From: an uncultured delta proteobacterium
GTDB lineage: Bacteria; RBG-13-61-14; DRUE01
Assembly (NCBI GenBank): GCA_903930515.1
Contig: CAIYYW010000221.1
Location: 1-5,929 of the forward strand
Length of the DNA: 5,929 bases
Direction: 5' to 3'
Under the pieces are notes generated by a model. That model ran no database searches, was not told where the DNA came from, and was given only the letters and a program-made list of their open reading frames with translations. The translations under genes and the position numbers were made by a program. Below, piece after piece: positions 479 through 5,929 of the stretch; the stretch's first letter is position 1, and each line of letters begins with the position of its first letter.

Positions 479-2074
479 TTATTTTTGCTGTTTCGGTTTT
501 CCCTGTCCGCCTTGCTGGTTTCCGCCGCCTGGATGCGCTTGGCCTCCACCTTGCTGGCCGCCTCCGCCTTGGTTCGCTCCTCCTTGCTGACCTCCTCCTT
601 GCTGACCCCCGCCTTGCTGGCCTCCACCTTGCTGGCCTCCACCTTGCTGGCCTCCACCTTGCTGACCTCCGCCTTGCTGACCTCCGCCTTGCTGGCCGCC
701 ACCCTGGCTCTCATTAGCACGCTGCTGTCCGCGCTTCCGGGCCTGATAGTCGCTCTGGACATCTTGCGGGACACGGTTCCGATTTTGTTTAACCTGGCCC
801 TGGGACTGGCCCTGAGACTGGCCTTGGGACTGTCCCTGAGACTGGCCCTGGCCTTGGTATTGGCCCTGGGACTTGCCCTGGGACTGTCCCTGAGACTGTC
901 CCTGGGACTTGCCCTGTCCCTGGGATTGGGGCTGTCCCTTGCCTAGCTGCTGGGTCTGATTTCCGGCCGCGGCCTTTGAATTTTTGGGAGGATAGGCCCT
1001 GGACCATTTATCTTTATCGCCGGTGTTCTGCTGCCATCCGGTCTGGTTATGGCGGTAAACATTTCCTTGCTTGTCCACATAAACATTATTGGCTTTTCCC
1101 TGGGCAACATTGTGACGCGCGAGCCCGGGCTGGTTAACCACCCAATTTTTGTTTTCCTGGCGATGATAGATATTGGCCGGTTCCCCGCGACTCATTTCGT
1201 GATGGTAATTACCGGCATTGATCCGGTTGCCGTAGTTGACATTGCGGTAGATATTGACATTGCGGTTAATATAGGTGTTATGGTAAATATTCACATTCCG
1301 GTAGTAGTAAAAGTCCCGCGCATGCCATCCATAATATCCGGCCGGCCCGTACCAGCCCCAGCAATCCCATCCGTAGTTCCAGGCCACGCCCATAGTATAA
1401 AAACCCGTGCTCCAGGTGTATCCAATCCCCCAGCCCACCACCGGAACATAATGGGGATAAAAACCCCAGGTGCAGGGCCGCGGGTAATAATGCGCACCGT
1501 ACCATCCCGGATAATAATAGCCGGTGCCGTACACCACGGTGCCGTAATAGGGATACCATCCCAGATAACCGGGGGTGTAACCCATATAGATCACCTCCGG
1601 GGTGACATCATAAATATAAACATATTTAACATTGTAAACCGGATACTCCGGCGGAATGGTTTGAAAATCGTCCGGGACGGATTCCGCGACCACCCAGGGG
1701 CCGTTGGGCGTGGGCGCCACGAACCAGACCGCATTGGAGCAGGCGTAGTATCTGCCGTGGAGCAAGATCACCGGGGTGGTGGTGTTGACCGCATAGTCCA
1801 TATCGGTTCCCCGGATGTGATCTAATTTGGCAGGGCCGTCGTATTCAACCTCCAGGCGGGCCTCCCCGCGCTTGACCGCAGCGGTCTGCGGGATCTGAGA
1901 TTCAATCAGGGTGTCCTGCGACTCGTTGGTGCCGGGCACGCTGGCCAAAATATCCCCTTTGTCGGAGTTGGTCGGGACCTTGGCGAAGTCCTCGGGGCAA
2001 CTGGTCCGCGGGGACATAGGCCCAGGGGCCGTCCAGCGATTTGGACCGGTACCAGCGGCCGGCGAGCAGGACAT
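479..2074 (-). CDS. Exported GPW-repeat envelope protein, C-terminal part (frame-broken)
   Basis: This 531-codon frame is the continuation of the gene starting at 2987, not a separate gene. Its first 27 codons (2074 to 1994) read as Pro/Ser-rich nonsense, the ATG at 2074 has no Shine-Dalgarno, and sensible sequence starts at EDFAKVP (residue 28). That joins directly onto ADQLP of the upstream frame, giving a protein of about 835 residues. Own-frame features: third GPW repeat (about 68-136; W117, GPW 125-127), a Tyr/Trp/Gly-rich segment (about 156-265), Asn-rich NVNIY repeats (259-290), an NVYVDKQGNVYR element (330-341), an SQGQ-rich tract (about 382-428), and a GGGQQ tract running almost to the stop. 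The layout resembles a widespread, uncharacterised family of secreted proteins, some labelled carbohydrate-binding in databases. I recall that label from memory and it does not show function. It probably acts outside the inner membrane, as structural or adhesive material. Confidence 0.6.
   Translation of the reverse strand: MSCSPAAGTGPNRWTAPGPMSPRTSCPEDFAKVPTNSDKGDILASVPGTNESQDTLIESQIPQTAAVKRGEARLEVEYDGPAKLDHIRGTDMDYAVNTTTPVILLHGRYYACSNAVWFVAPTPNGPWVVAESVPDDFQTIPPEYPVYNVKYVYIYDVTPEVIYMGYTPGYLGWYPYYGTVVYGTGYYYPGWYGAHYYPRPCTWGFYPHYVPVVGWGIGYTWSTGFYTMGVAWNYGWDCWGWYGPAGYYGWHARDFYYYRNVNIYHNTYINRNVNIYRNVNYGNRINAGNYHHEMSRGEPANIYHRQENKNWVVNQPGLARHNVAQGKANNVYVDKQGNVYRHNQTGWQQNTGDKDKWSRAYPPKNSKAAAGNQTQQLGKGQPQSQGQGKSQGQSQGQSQGKSQGQYQGQGQSQGQSQGQSQGQSQGQVKQNRNRVPQDVQSDYQARKRGQQRANESQGGGQQGGGQQGGGQQGGGQQGGGQQGGGQQGGGQQGGGQQGGANQGGGGQQGGGQAHPGGGNQQGGQGKPKQQK
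583..702 (-). repeat. Tandem 15-bp repeat encoding GGGQQ units
   Basis: Eight consecutive 15-base units run from 583 to 702 (plus-strand consensus CTTGCTGGCCTCCAC). The three at 613-657 are identical and the others differ by a few bases. Each encodes five residues, GGGQQ, in the C-terminal tail of the envelope protein. Degenerate copies continue to about 545. Because the unit is a multiple of three, gain or loss of copies would change tail length without breaking the frame. Confidence 0.9.
795..945 (-). repeat. Tandem 12-bp repeat tract encoding SQGQ units
   Basis: Roughly 150 bases are built from variants of a 12-base unit (plus strand TGGCCCTGGGAC or TGTCCCTGAGAC), with occasional 6-base insertions. 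In the coding frame this gives SQGQ, SQGK and QGQG repeats. It is separated from the GGGQQ array by a charged, non-repetitive linker (about 705-790, including QDVQSDYQARKRGQQ). The low complexity also creates long open antisense frames that are not genes. Confidence 0.85.
1236..1266 (-). repeat. Short 18-bp-period repeat encoding NVNIY units
   Basis: TTGACATTGCGGT occurs at 1236-1248 and again at 1254-1266, an 18-base period. On the coding strand it encodes repeated RNVNIY-type units (YRNVNIYHN, NRNVNIYRN) after the aromatic-rich segment. It is a minor internal duplication, in phase with the reading frame. Confidence 0.7.
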
Positions 2075-2987
2075 AGTGGTACTGGGATGAGATGTCCATC
2101 AGCACATCGTTTTCGCTGTTGCTCAGGTAAAGGAGGCTGGTGCCCTTGATGGGCGAATAAAGGGCAGCCCCCTGGGTCACGATCAATTCGGCCGGAACCT
2201 GCGAGACGATGATGGCCGGCATCTCTGAATCCGGGAGGTTGTTGACCACCGGCTGTCCATTATCGGTTACCATACCCAAAACCTCCGCGGGCAAATTGCG
2301 GTCAATCCGCCAAGGGCCCGGAACCTCGGAGGCGCTGTACCAGGCGTTTCCGGAGGACAAGTAATATTTACGGGTATCGGGATGAAAAATCATCATCATC
2401 GGGGTGTTGATCACCCGCATCAGGCGGGACCCGTCAATCGCCTGTAGTTTGGGAGCGCCGTCAATCAAGACCAGGACCGCGGGATGATTGACAAAAATAA
2501 TCTTCGGGGGAGCGGTGGCCAGATTTTCCGAAGCCTTTTCCTCTTTTTGAGCGGTCTCCAAAGTCGCGAGCAGGGCGTCCAGCGAGCCGTGCAGGTTGCG
2601 CTTGGGCAATTCCCTTTCCACCGTCGCGGAAAATGCCTGCTCCTGATCCGGGGTGGAATTCGGGAACTTCACCCGGGTGACATCAATGCTTTCCAGTTCA
2701 TAGGTTCGCGTGTCCATATCAGAAACCAGCTTGGCCGTGAACCAGATGGCGCCGAAGGCGGGCGTGTCGCTGCCGGGGGGGGTCAGGGAAACCGCGGCCC
2801 GGCCGGTTAATTTATTGCCCTGAAGAATTTCCGGCTGAGGCTCGTAGATTTCAATGGCGCCGCTGTTGGATTTAATCTCCACCGGCCATTCCAGGGTGGT
2901 CCAGGATTGCTGCCCGACCAGGACGGTGGAAAAGATAAATCCCATAATAACAAACAGAATGCCAACGATTTTGGATTGGGGTTTCAT
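1902..2987 (-). CDS. Exported GPW-repeat envelope protein, N-terminal part (frame-broken)
   Basis: The frame starts at ATG 2987-2985 behind a near-perfect Shine-Dalgarno. As read it has 361 codons, but only residues 1-331 look genuine; the last 30 are out-of-frame residues after the CCCC site at 1994-1997. Residues about 7-25 form a hydrophobic signal peptide (IVGILFVIMGFIFSTVLVG) with QQSW after it, so export across the inner membrane is expected. Residues about 30-160 form a domain I do not recognise, ending in a charged helix-like stretch (about 135-160). Two imperfect repeats follow, about 162-240 and 257-331, each ending in an 11-residue W-to-W element (WYSASEVPGPW at 216-226 and WYRSKSLDGPW at 312-322). 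The third copy is in the next frame. The gene seems monocistronic, separated by 250 bases from the operon upstream. Function is unknown; a surface or periplasmic structural role is inference. Confidence 0.75.
   Translation of the reverse strand: MKPQSKIVGILFVIMGFIFSTVLVGQQSWTTLEWPVEIKSNSGAIEIYEPQPEILQGNKLTGRAAVSLTPPGSDTPAFGAIWFTAKLVSDMDTRTYELESIDVTRVKFPNSTPDQEQAFSATVERELPKRNLHGSLDALLATLETAQKEEKASENLATAPPKIIFVNHPAVLVLIDGAPKLQAIDGSRLMRVINTPMMMIFHPDTRKYYLSSGNAWYSASEVPGPWRIDRNLPAEVLGMVTDNGQPVVNNLPDSEMPAIIVSQVPAELIVTQGAALYSPIKGTSLLYLSNSENDVLMDISSQYHYVLLAGRWYRSKSLDGPWAYVPADQLPRGLRQGPDQLRQRGYFGQRARHQRVAGHPD
1994..1997 (-). other. Frameshift site (one extra base in CCCC)
   Basis: On the coding strand the zero frame reads GAC CAG TTG CCC CGA GGA CTT, whereas GAG GAC TTC GCC AAG continues the protein sensibly in the +1 frame. 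Removing one C from the CCCC run gives ADQLPEDFAKVP, which matches the other repeats (SVPDDF and NLPAEV at the same point). Downstream of this point the zero frame becomes Arg/Gln-rich and ends at 1902. Upstream of it the other frame is Pro/Ser-rich. The switch is therefore placed within a few bases. It may be a sequencing or assembly error, a real inactivating mutation, or a site of +1 ribosomal slippage. Confidence 0.8.
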
Positions 2988-2993
2988 TTTTGT

Positions 2994-3000
2994 CCTCCTT
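2994..3000 (-). promoter_or_regulatory. Strong ribosome binding site of the envelope gene
   Basis: AAGGAGG on the minus strand, six bases before ATG 2987-2985. It is the best Shine-Dalgarno in the window. It fixes the start of the envelope protein and suggests high translation, in contrast to the ATG at 2074, which has none. Confidence 0.85.
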
Positions 3001-3008
3001 TTAAGTAA

Positions 3009-3043
3009 TAGACGCTTTAGCTTCCATTTTTATTTAGACGCTT
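3009..3043. repeat. 9-bp direct repeat TAGACGCTT upstream of the envelope gene
   Basis: TAGACGCTT occurs at 3009-3017 and 3035-3043, starts 26 bases apart, just upstream of the envelope gene's ribosome binding site. The distal copy coincides with the proposed -10 element. The two may be a duplicated operator or two alternative -10 elements; chance cannot be excluded. Confidence 0.5.
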
Positions 3044-3061
3044 CCTGTCCGATTTAGGTTC
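3035..3061 (-). promoter_or_regulatory. Possible ECF-type promoter for the envelope gene
   Basis: On the minus strand GAACCT (complement of 3056-3061) is followed by 15 bases and CGTCTA (complement of 3035-3040). GAAC-type -35 and CGTC-type -10 elements with about this spacing are typical of extracytoplasmic-function sigma factors. I found no convincing sigma70 promoter in the same 250-base gap. Transcription from here would give a leader of about 40 bases. Regulation by envelope stress would suit an exported protein, but this rests on two short motifs only. Confidence 0.25.
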
Positions 3062-3180
3062 TCATTCCCGTTCCGGCTCGGGATCTTTGGAGGATGGAAT
3101 TGAGTTCAGGGCGCGACTTGTAACTTAAGGGCGGGATCAGGGCTTGAATTGGGGCTTCAGGTTCCATTTCCCGCCCAACC

Positions 3181-3195
3181 CCGGGTCATCCCCGG
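3181..3195 (-). other. GC-rich hairpin downstream of the kinase-like gene
   Basis: CCGGG at 3181-3185 pairs with CCCGG at 3191-3195 around a five-base loop, 43 bases past the kinase stop codon. It lacks a T-run on either strand, so it is not a classical terminator. It may mark the 3' end of the glycan operon transcript or be incidental. Confidence 0.25.
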
Positions 3196-3237
3196 CAATG
3201 CGCGTTTCTCAATTTTCAAAATAGAAAGCATCCGGTT

Positions 3238-4674
3238 TCAGAATAGTTTTTGGCTCTCAAATCCCTGTTTCAAAAAGGTGATTTCGGAGGATTCCAGGAA
3301 GGCGTCTCCAAGGAGTCGGGTGAGCAGGGGGGAGTTGTCAAAGTCGGGGATTTTGGACAGGCGGCTCCGAGAGAACAGCAGCCGGTCGGGACGGGAGATC
3401 TTGAATTCAAATCCGGAATCAGAGGTTTTGGCCAGGATCAGTTCGCCGGGGGCGCCGATGACCTTGACCCCGAACAAGTCCATCCGGAACAGGAATTGTC
3501 CCAACGCGGCCAGGGCCTGCTTCCGGTTTCCGGAAAAGGACGGCCCGAAAAATTCTTTGATCGGCCGGGCGCCTTCCGTGAATTCAATCCCGGCCAGGCC
3601 CTCCCGCCCTCCCGGTAATTCCACGGCCAGAAGGATGGCCCGGCAGTTGATCCTCAACTCGCGCAGATAGAAATATTTTTCCATCACCGCTTGCCCGGAA
3701 CCGGCCTCAATCATTTCCAGATTGTTGTTCCCGATTGCAATGACGCCGTGATCCGGGAGATGAGTGGATTCCAGGAATGTCTCCACCGCGCTTTTGCCCG
3801 GCTCCCGGCTGACCCGCAGTTCCAATCCGGCGGTTTTGAATTTTTCAATCAACTCGTTGGTGTCCTTGGCCCAGCTTTGTCTTTTTTCCGCGTGCCTTTT
3901 CAGCTGTCGGATTCCGCTTAAAATAACTTTCCTTCTCAACCTGCCTTTGCTGAAATCATCTCCGGCCGTCTTGGAATATTCCTCCAAAAACCACTCCATT
4001 TCCGGGCAGGATTCAATCCTGAAAAAGCCTTGGAGCATTTTCCCGAGGTTGGATATCCGATTCCCGCGCGAAAGCGGGCCGGGATAAAACTTGATCCGCT
4101 CCAGGTCGGACAGGATCAGTTCAAAACCGGGTCCGGTTTTGCGGACCAGGATGGAATCGGGCTTGAAGTCCCTTTGCAGGATGCCTTTTTGATCCAGTTC
4201 TGAAACCAGCCGGGCCAGGCTGATGAAAAGGGCTTTCCTTCCCTCGCTTTCCATCTTTTTCCAGGCCCGGTCAAAGGGCTGCAACCCTTCCCAAAAAGGC
4301 TCCAGGACCAGTTCCTCGGCCGGGAACAAACCCTCGCGCCGGTATCCGAAAGCGATCGCCTTGACCGCGGGAATTTTCAGCTCGGCCAATTTTTTAGCGG
4401 CGAAAAATTCCTGGGCGCATCTGGAGTTCCGGACCAGATATTTCATCCGCTTGCCCAATTTCGCGGGAAGATAGGCTTTGATTAGAAATTTTTCAGGTGA
4501 TCCTTCCGGGGAGAACAGATAAATCCTTCTCCGGCCTGTGGTGGTTTTAAACAGGCTGAGGCTGGGCCGGCTCTTTTCTTGAGCCTGCTTGATTTGAGAG
4601 ACAACCGCCGATCCCCGCTCATCGCTGAAGATAAATTCCCAGCCCGGATCGTTTAGTCGGAGTTCATCCAGCAT
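3238..4674 (-). CDS. WaaP/Kdo-kinase-like protein with a degenerate second kinase domain
   Basis: A 478-residue protein with no signal peptide. The N-terminal half resembles lipopolysaccharide kinases of the WaaP/KdkA type, which phosphorylate heptose or Kdo of the LPS core in the cytoplasm. Visible landmarks are FLIKAY with the ATP-binding Lys66, AQEFF with the likely helix-C Glu89, LQRDFKPDSILV with catalytic Asp169, and LILSDLER with metal-binding Asp190 followed by a basic RGNR stretch (203-206). The position after DFKPD, often Asn in kinases, is Ser174. Residues about 220-305 are a charged linker. Residues about 306-460 look like a second copy of the fold: REGL at 357-360 echoes 113-116, and 402-434 aligns without gaps to 164-196, but the catalytic Asp residues are Gly407 and Arg428. 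The start ATG overlaps the glycosyltransferase stop by 11 bases with AGGTGA six bases upstream, so the two are probably translationally coupled. Exact substrate is unknown. Confidence 0.75.
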   Translation of the reverse strand: MLDELRLNDPGWEFIFSDERGSAVVSQIKQAQEKSRPSLSLFKTTTGRRRIYLFSPEGSPEKFLIKAYLPAKLGKRMKYLVRNSRCAQEFFAAKKLAELKIPAVKAIAFGYRREGLFPAEELVLEPFWEGLQPFDRAWKKMESEGRKALFISLARLVSELDQKGILQRDFKPDSILVRKTGPGFELILSDLERIKFYPGPLSRGNRISNLGKMLQGFFRIESCPEMEWFLEEYSKTAGDDFSKGRLRRKVILSGIRQLKRHAEKRQSWAKDTNELIEKFKTAGLELRVSREPGKSAVETFLESTHLPDHGVIAIGNNNLEMIEAGSGQAVMEKYFYLRELRINCRAILLAVELPGGREGLAGIEFTEGARPIKEFFGPSFSGNRKQALAALGQFLFRMDLFGVKVIGAPGELILAKTSDSGFEFKISRPDRLLFSRSRLSKIPDFDNSPLLTRLLGDAFLESSEITFLKQGFESQKLF

Positions 4675-5638
4675 TGCCCATCACCTTTTCAAAAATCTCA
4701 AAGTAGTTCCTGACCATTGTTGACAAATATAAGTCCGGCCGTTCCCGGCATTTTTTCCTTTGGTCCAATATGGCATTTGACGCCTTGACCGCCTCATCAA
4801 TATCCACCGGGTTCGGCCCGAAATCCTCCAGGTCGTCATCCTTGGCCCCGCGCGCCGCGATCCCGCAATCCTGCACCAGCTCTTTGGTCCCGCCGCGATA
4901 TGAGCAAACCACCGGCAATCCGGACACCAGGGCCTGCGCCACCACCTTCGGGCACCATTCCTGCCAGGGAAGGTAGATAAACAAATCAGCGGCTCGGAAC
5001 ACCCGGGCCATTTCCTTATGGCTGAGCTTGCCGGTGACCTTGATCCGGGGATGAGACGGAACTTCAGCGCCATCTCCCAAAACCGCCAGTCCCAGGTCCT
5101 CGCGGTCCAGCTTTTGGAAAACCTCCACCGCCTGGTCCAGACCCTTCCACGGACGCCAGCGCGCAGCCGTGACCATCATTCGCTTAAACCCGAAATCAGT
5201 TTTGGGACCCTGGCGCGAAAAAATATTCTCGTCCGCTCCGTTGAGCGCGATGAAGCACGGCTTGTCCAGGGAAAAAGACCGCTCCCAGATTTCCCGGCAG
5301 AAATGACTCTGGAAAATCACCGCGTCGCATTTTTCATAAGTCTGATAGATCGGGTTGTCGGAGCGGGGGCTTTGGGAATCCTTGATCCCGGCGCCGTCCA
5401 CGCGCTGGACCAGCTTGGCGCCCTGGTTTCGGAAATGTTCCAGCCGGTCCCAATCTTGGTCGCAGTCAATCACCAAAAGGATGTCCGGCTTTTCCGCGTC
5501 CTTCCAGAAGGCCGCGCTCCGCCCCTGCCTTTTGGCCTCGGCCAGGAACTGCTCTCCGAAATAAGGAGAGCCCGGGAACCGCCTGGGCTGATGGTTAATC
5601 GCGACCCTGATCCCGGTATTTTTCCTTCGCCAGCGCAT
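4664..5638 (-). CDS. Glycosyltransferase, GT-B fold, family 4 type
   Basis: A 324-residue cytosolic or membrane-associated enzyme likely to transfer a sugar from a nucleotide-sugar donor to a growing LPS-core or surface glycan. The N-terminal Rossmann half begins near GIRVAINHQP (residues 9-18) and contains LVQRVDG and CDAVIFQSHF. The interdomain ALNGADENIF (NGAD at 133-136) matches the NGVD-type motif of the family. The C-terminal donor-binding half has AARWRPWKGL (K165) and EWCPKVVAQALVSGLPVV. The family's EX7E motif is E227 with Gln235 in place of the second Glu. I chose ATG 5638-5636 because AAGGGGG lies nine bases upstream (5648-5654); a TTG at 5662 is an alternative adding eight residues. 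It overlaps the upstream gene by 44 bases and the kinase-like gene by 11, which indicates one operon. The sugar and acceptor cannot be told from sequence. Confidence 0.85.
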   Translation of the reverse strand: MRWRRKNTGIRVAINHQPRRFPGSPYFGEQFLAEAKRQGRSAAFWKDAEKPDILLVIDCDQDWDRLEHFRNQGAKLVQRVDGAGIKDSQSPRSDNPIYQTYEKCDAVIFQSHFCREIWERSFSLDKPCFIALNGADENIFSRQGPKTDFGFKRMMVTAARWRPWKGLDQAVEVFQKLDREDLGLAVLGDGAEVPSHPRIKVTGKLSHKEMARVFRAADLFIYLPWQEWCPKVVAQALVSGLPVVCSYRGGTKELVQDCGIAARGAKDDDLEDFGPNPVDIDEAVKASNAILDQRKKCRERPDLYLSTMVRNYFEIFEKVMGNAG

Positions 5639-5929
5639 CCTGTTTTTCCCCCTTGCCGGCAAGCAAGGCCGAGATCAGACTTCCCCAGAGCTTGGGCTCA
5701 AACGGCTTAAGCTTGAACGCGACTTTGAGGAAATCCTTGGCCAATTCCAACTCGCCGAAATTTTTCAGCGCCAGGTACCGGTCGTAAAAATATCCGTAAG
5801 GATTTTTAAAATCGTAAAAACCGCGCAGGCGGATTTTGGTTTCCAGCCCGTGGTATTTTTCCGAGAGCCGGTCCATCTCCACCAGCGCCTTTTGATACGC
5901 GGGCTGGAGGCCGGGATCCTTGGGAAAAC
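5595..5929 (-). CDS. C-terminal part of an unrecognised protein, TPR-like helices
   Basis: The frame is open from the right window edge to TAA at 5597-5595 and gives the last 110 residues of a longer protein; the start lies outside. A GTG at 5882 is in frame but sits within continuous coding sequence (upstream residues include PKDPGLQPAYQKAL) and has no need to be a start. The visible part is helical: an amphipathic segment (ALVEMDRLSEKYHGLE), an aromatic NPYGYFYDRY, then two helices (ALKNFGELELAKDFLKVAF and EPKLWGSLISALLAG) with the spacing of a tetratricopeptide-like repeat. The tail is charged (KGEKQDALAKEKYRDQGRD). I do not recognise the family. Its position directly before, and overlapping, a glycosyltransferase and an LPS-kinase-like gene suggests a part in the same glycan pathway, perhaps a glycosyltransferase with a TPR tail. 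That is inference. Confidence 0.7.
   Translation of the reverse strand, partial: FPKDPGLQPAYQKALVEMDRLSEKYHGLETKIRLRGFYDFKNPYGYFYDRYLALKNFGELELAKDFLKVAFKLKPFEPKLWGSLISALLAGKGEKQDALAKEKYRDQGRD

Follow-up and report, generated by a model that had tools for sequence, protein, structure and literature searches.

A tandem WaaP/Kdo-type kinase with a predicted pseudokinase half in an uncultured delta proteobacterium

Analysis of a 5,929-nucleotide contig from an uncultured delta proteobacterium (hereafter referred to as the window) identified a gene encoding a 478 aa protein, P0001, in which a WaaP/Kdo-type kinase domain is followed by a second half predicted to be a pseudokinase (Table 1). We consider it reasonably probable (roughly 0.6) that this protein is an active sugar kinase, co-translated with the adjacent GT4-family glycosyltransferase, and that its former second kinase has been kept as a stabilizing, docking or allosteric module. 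Taken by itself, the window yields a modest gain, in that a divergent LPS-type kinase is now better annotated.

Table 1. Features of the tandem kinase locus, in window coordinates.
Feature	Position	Strand	Basis
Tandem kinase-pseudokinase gene (second half predicted)	3238..4674	-	478 aa; GC3 bias alike in both halves (0.64 and 0.69)
N-half kinase domain, residues 40-245	3940..4557	-	PF06293 E 2.7e-11; HMM of intact halves E 4e-32; structural matches
Lys66, predicted ATP-binding lysine	4477..4479	-	Aligned with invariant Lys of intact halves
N-half catalytic core, residues 164-196: QRD (D169), S174, D190	4087..4185	-	Alignments
C-half, predicted pseudokinase fold, residues about 276-478	3241..3849	-	AlphaFold2 model, WaaP match, hhalign
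Degenerate catalytic core, residues 402-434	3373..3471	-	G407 (HRD Asp), L412 (Asn), R428 (DFG Asp)
GT4-family glycosyltransferase, directly upstream of kinase	4664..5662	-	PF00534 E 6.8e-13; ORF coordinates; same order in G001
GT2-TPR glycosyltransferase, C-terminal end, cut by contig end	5595..5927	-	Match to G001 GT2-TPR protein

Genomic setting and N-terminal kinase domain

The reading frame of the 478 aa protein lies on the complementary strand, and the plus strand is full of stop codons over the same interval. The GT4 gene runs 11 nt into the kinase gene before its stop, an arrangement that likely reflects translational coupling. The fragment encoded at the contig end shares 62% identity over 110 aa with the end of a GT2-TPR protein from a same-genus genome (G001), which keeps the gene order GT2-TPR, GT4, GT4, kinase. 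The G001 kinase is the only close ortholog of the window protein; a contig end cuts its gene before the C-half, and a search of the other G001 contigs found no match for that half. Elsewhere in the window, two overlapping ORFs in different frames (479-2074 and 1902-2987, minus strand) look like one frameshift-broken gene, the second showing a tyrosine-rich domain and GGGQQ-type repeats at its end. The pair has no Pfam match, and the break could be a sequencing error.

Residues 76-194 of the N-half match PF06293 (Kdo/WaaP kinases) at 43.8 bits, above the Pfam gathering cut-off of 21.3, and the model of the N-half resembles PRPK (Z 18.5) and WaaP (6dfl, Z 17.1). Searched against PDB sequences, the complete protein gave weak N-half kinase matches only. 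The residues expected of an active kinase are present as a VAIK-type Lys (K66), an HRD Asp (D169) and a DFG Asp (D190), together with E89, while the HRD His and the metal-binding Asn (or the WaaP-type His) are replaced by Q167 and S174. These two replacements, and the existence in the same genome of a paralogue (P0005) that lacks key catalytic residues in both halves, would be compatible with the whole protein being a weak or inactive scaffold like P0005. We judge this improbable, given that K66, E89, D169 and D190 are intact, that the QRDFKPDS motif is identical in the window protein, P0002 and P0004, and that WaaP works with a His in place of the metal-binding Asn (PMC6147952).

The sequence-only reading had proposed a WaaP-like LPS-core kinase fused to a pseudokinase. 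Its family assignment and its dead second fold both stand, but the window protein scores only 18.3 bits against the WaaP equivalog NF011703 (RfaP; cut-off 170) and 17.9 bits against the KdkA equivalog NF002475 (cut-off 142). Judged by these scores, it is not an equivalog of either, and the label of LPS-core kinase is therefore too specific. The one line of support for an assignment as an LPS heptose or Kdo kinase is the gene neighbourhood, with its GT4 and GT2 genes.

Kinship and predicted inactivity of the C-terminal half

The gapless alignment of residues 164-196 with residues 402-434 from which the sequence-only reading had started was reproduced, with 9 identities and 16 positives in 33 columns and a BLOSUM62 score of 32. 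The further correspondences that it had listed are present as well, including REGL at 113 and 357, LAELKI (96) and LRELRI (337), and the placement of D169 opposite G407 and of D190 opposite R428. No window of shuffled C-halves matched the alignment score against the same N-terminal window (0/300). A second, off-register gapless diagonal within the protein, 189 versus 367, has a slightly higher score (38) and was rejected as the register of the repeat because it connects structurally non-equivalent elements; given this competitor, pairwise comparison cannot decide the matter by itself. The C-half on its own likewise gave weak results in HMM searches, with equally good scores in 85 of 2000 shuffles for one profile and in 6 of 2000 for another, and single-sequence evidence was therefore not relied on. 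A Pfam search with residues 261-478 returned no PF06293 match, so that the C-half is not a PF06293 member as judged by Pfam; a sub-cut-off match to DUF5983_N was treated as noise.

The kinship of the C-half with kinases is settled instead by its family-level profile match and its fold. Profile-profile alignment with hhalign was performed against 14 halves from seven tandem proteins, with 200 column shuffles as control. The score rose from 27.3 for the C-half alone (best shuffle 20.5) to 53.4 on addition of the G002 relative (best shuffle 21.6) and to 105.3 with three same-phylum relatives (E 1.5e-15; best shuffle 18.6), part of this last signal being supplied by two of the three relatives, which have recognizable C-terminal kinases. 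The register agrees with that of the 164-196/402-434 alignment, placing GVKVIGAPGELILA on the kinase HxDxxxxNxLV motif.

An initial AlphaFold2 model of the full-length protein, built from four sequences, was confident for the N-half. Of the C-half it resolved only the C-lobe core, with residues 384-434 modelled at moderate confidence as helix E, catalytic loop and strands 6-9 of another kinase C-lobe; made without intact kinases, it provides the less biased check. A second model, restricted to residues 250-478 and built from nine C-halves, had a pLDDT of 76.8 and a pTM of 0.75, with intact kinases in the underlying alignment that may favor a kinase fold. Its best Foldseek match was WaaP (6dfl, E 7.3e-6), and VIA-align 2 gave WaaP 6dfl a Z of 12.0 over 185 residues (rmsd 4.0 Å), with Bud32 and PRPK tied. 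The models thus support a kinase fold for the C-half, rather than a non-kinase one. The idea that the C-half is no kinase at all and that the repeat arose by chance, to which the weak HMM scores and the off-register diagonal would lend themselves, is strongly disfavored by the in-register profile-profile match, by WaaP being the best structural match and by the clear second kinases of tandem relatives.

Across six intact tandem proteins (12 halves), the lysine and the two aspartates, that of HxD and the metal-binding one, are invariant. All three are also kept in nearly all halves tabulated, and are absent from the window C-half, in which both model and alignments show no Lys in the strand preceding helix C. 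Because the lysine and both aspartates are missing, we regard the C-half as a predicted pseudokinase, in agreement with the inactivity originally suggested for it, and would expect it neither to bind Mg-ATP nor to transfer phosphate. Some other pseudokinases have non-canonical activities, such as nucleotide transfer. A SelO-type activity of this kind could be envisaged for the C-half, which retains a kinase-like fold in a family to which SelO is close (PMC3281104), but with the lysine, the catalytic Asp, the metal-binding Asp and the Asn all gone we consider it very improbable.

Tandem relatives and repeated loss of one half

The premise that WaaP/KdkA-type proteins are single-domain, and that a fusion would be unusual, did not hold. 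Two kinase folds per ORF are a recurrent layout among the relatives of the window protein, with many intact two-kinase ORFs in other phyla and further two-domain members in the window phylum. Tandem PF06293 proteins were found in at least nine genome families among those searched, and, for relatives in other phyla, two kinase-half profile matches per ORF were found in G026/G311, G028, G049, G058, G088, G141, G175 and G229 (twice). At least 25 of the 44 genomes in the phylum of G229 have two matches in one open frame. The phylum of G141 shows adjacent pairs of single kinases in most genomes and both matches in one frame in three only. A natural split/fused pair is provided by G278, where two kinase genes overlapping by 11 nt (L093:1702-2496 and 2486-3271) are the counterpart of one fused ORF in G141 (L092:1875-3416), the halves of the two genomes pairing with their counterparts at 100% bootstrap. 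A tblastn search of plasmids with an intact tandem relative returned short single-domain matches only. A search of the available literature found no published account of tandem or pseudokinase WaaP/PF06293 members, which is not proof of absence.

The window phylum is represented by three genomes in the set, and scans of genome contigs found two same-phylum relatives and no others. One of these genomes, Deltaproteobacteria bacterium RBG_13_61_14 (G002), which belongs to another family, encodes two two-domain members, P0002 (513 aa) and P0003 (550 aa), the latter with two PF06293 stretches. Both keep the length of two domains and have a decayed C-half, as does P0005 (524 aa). Visual inspection placed the P0005 gene, located elsewhere in the window's genome (L050:733-2307, plus strand; G000:C226), between GT9 heptosyltransferase-like and GT4-like genes, and its G002 counterpart (L004:487-2139, minus strand) in a similar setting with a GT2-like gene added; P0005 is a candidate double pseudokinase.

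Inspection of the catalytic motifs indicates that inactivation has struck the N-half in some lineages and the C-half in others. The C-half appears dead in the window protein and in P0002, and in G421 and G422 an intact N-half is joined to a C-half with HGG or HGS where HGD is expected. The reverse is seen in G418 and G419, where the N-half appears dead (LQ) and the C-half intact, and in the N-half of G028 an Asn replaces the catalytic Asp. Besides an intact tandem, G058 encodes a separate kinase with a degenerate C-half (L051:1539-2888), whose RPDLV at the DFG position resembles, by eye, the RPDRL of the window C-half.

In a tree of the halves, the window N-half clusters, with moderate support (80/80), among tandem-protein N-halves of other phyla rather than with single-domain kinases, and C-halves fall away from this group. 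Deep branches of the tree are weak and several long branches were flagged; the window C-half, being too divergent, was left out. A position among tandem N-halves is what would be expected if the ancestor was itself tandem, and is suggestive of an ancestral tandem protein whose second half decayed in the window lineage.

The main rival to our preferred reading takes this decay further, holding that the C-half is a relic, a one-time kinase domain on which selection has relaxed, which has no function of its own and is tolerated because it is harmless to the N-half. Such a relic would be in keeping with the strong divergence of the C-half, its shortened N-lobe, the loss of all three key residues and the failure to find a close ortholog of it. 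The frame has nevertheless stayed open over about 200 codons, its codon-position bias is similar to the one seen in the N-half, and P0002, from another family, has also kept its two-domain length and decayed C-half. These are mild arguments, to which is added the retention of a single dead half in several other lineages, and on balance we regard the relic as an unlikely explanation.

Proposed role and comparison with known systems

The reading that we favor, of an active kinase assisted by its former partner, would begin with an ancestral tandem protein bearing two active WaaP/Kdo-type kinase domains. In the present protein the N-half, through K66, E89, D169 and D190, would transfer phosphate to a sugar within a lipid-linked saccharide, probably the LPS core or a related glycan, made by the co-translated GT4 and presumably assembled on the cytoplasmic side of the inner membrane. 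The C-half, in which the kinase fold has been retained but the lysine and both aspartates are gone, would carry out no phosphotransfer and may now stabilize, dock or allosterically modulate the N-half. Precedents for the first two of these roles come from the stabilization of WaaP by acyl-ACP (PMC6147952) and from PA5006, a putative LPS kinase of about 493 aa encoded in the waaP-wapP-wapQ LPS-core operon of P. aeruginosa, whose C-terminal fragment 300-493 suffices to bind the membrane protein PA2576 (PMC8707732). The likeness of PA5006 to the window protein lies in its length, about twice that of one kinase domain, its operon and its fragment binding.

Among the closest known systems is WaaP (RfaP; LPS core heptose(I) kinase, PF06293, 6DFL), which both halves resemble in fold and with which the N-half shares the lysine and both aspartates; WaaP, however, is a single domain of about 260 aa, to which the window protein adds a second, predicted dead kinase fold. 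The Kdo kinase KdkA likewise shares PF06293 and is set apart from the window protein by the tandem layout and by the equivalog score given above. PRPK/Bud32 and RIO kinases, with their small atypical kinase fold, are the top structural neighbours of both halves, but they are protein or tRNA-pathway kinases found outside sugar clusters.

Pairs of kinases and pseudokinases are best known in eukaryotic signalling. JAK-type JH2-JH1 tandems also pair an active with a dead kinase fold within a single polypeptide, an analogy only; their tandem is unrelated by descent and, unlike them, the window protein has its active half at the N-terminus and probably a sugar as substrate. In several relatives (G175, G088 and G028), a GT2 glycosyltransferase domain precedes the tandem kinases in the same chain. 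We put forward, tentatively and as something that may well prove too broad, that tandem WaaP/Kdo-type kinases are a widespread undescribed class in which one half has repeatedly died and been kept to control or dock the active one, a JAK-like counterpart in glycan phosphorylation that is in places fused to the glycosyltransferase making its acceptor. If so, they would offer a natural series for testing how an inactivated kinase domain is brought into the service of its active neighbour, and tandem kinases would be a domain layout of glycan phosphorylation that has so far been overlooked across many uncultured phyla.

The ORFs combining a GT2 domain with two WaaP-type kinase domains span about 780-840 aa and occur in three genome families (L059:1-2511; L055:3-2354, minus strand; L091:902-3427). 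A different fusion is seen in G084, where a 718 aa ORF (L095:1772-3928) joins a WaaP-type kinase to a C-terminal part seemingly unrelated to kinases.
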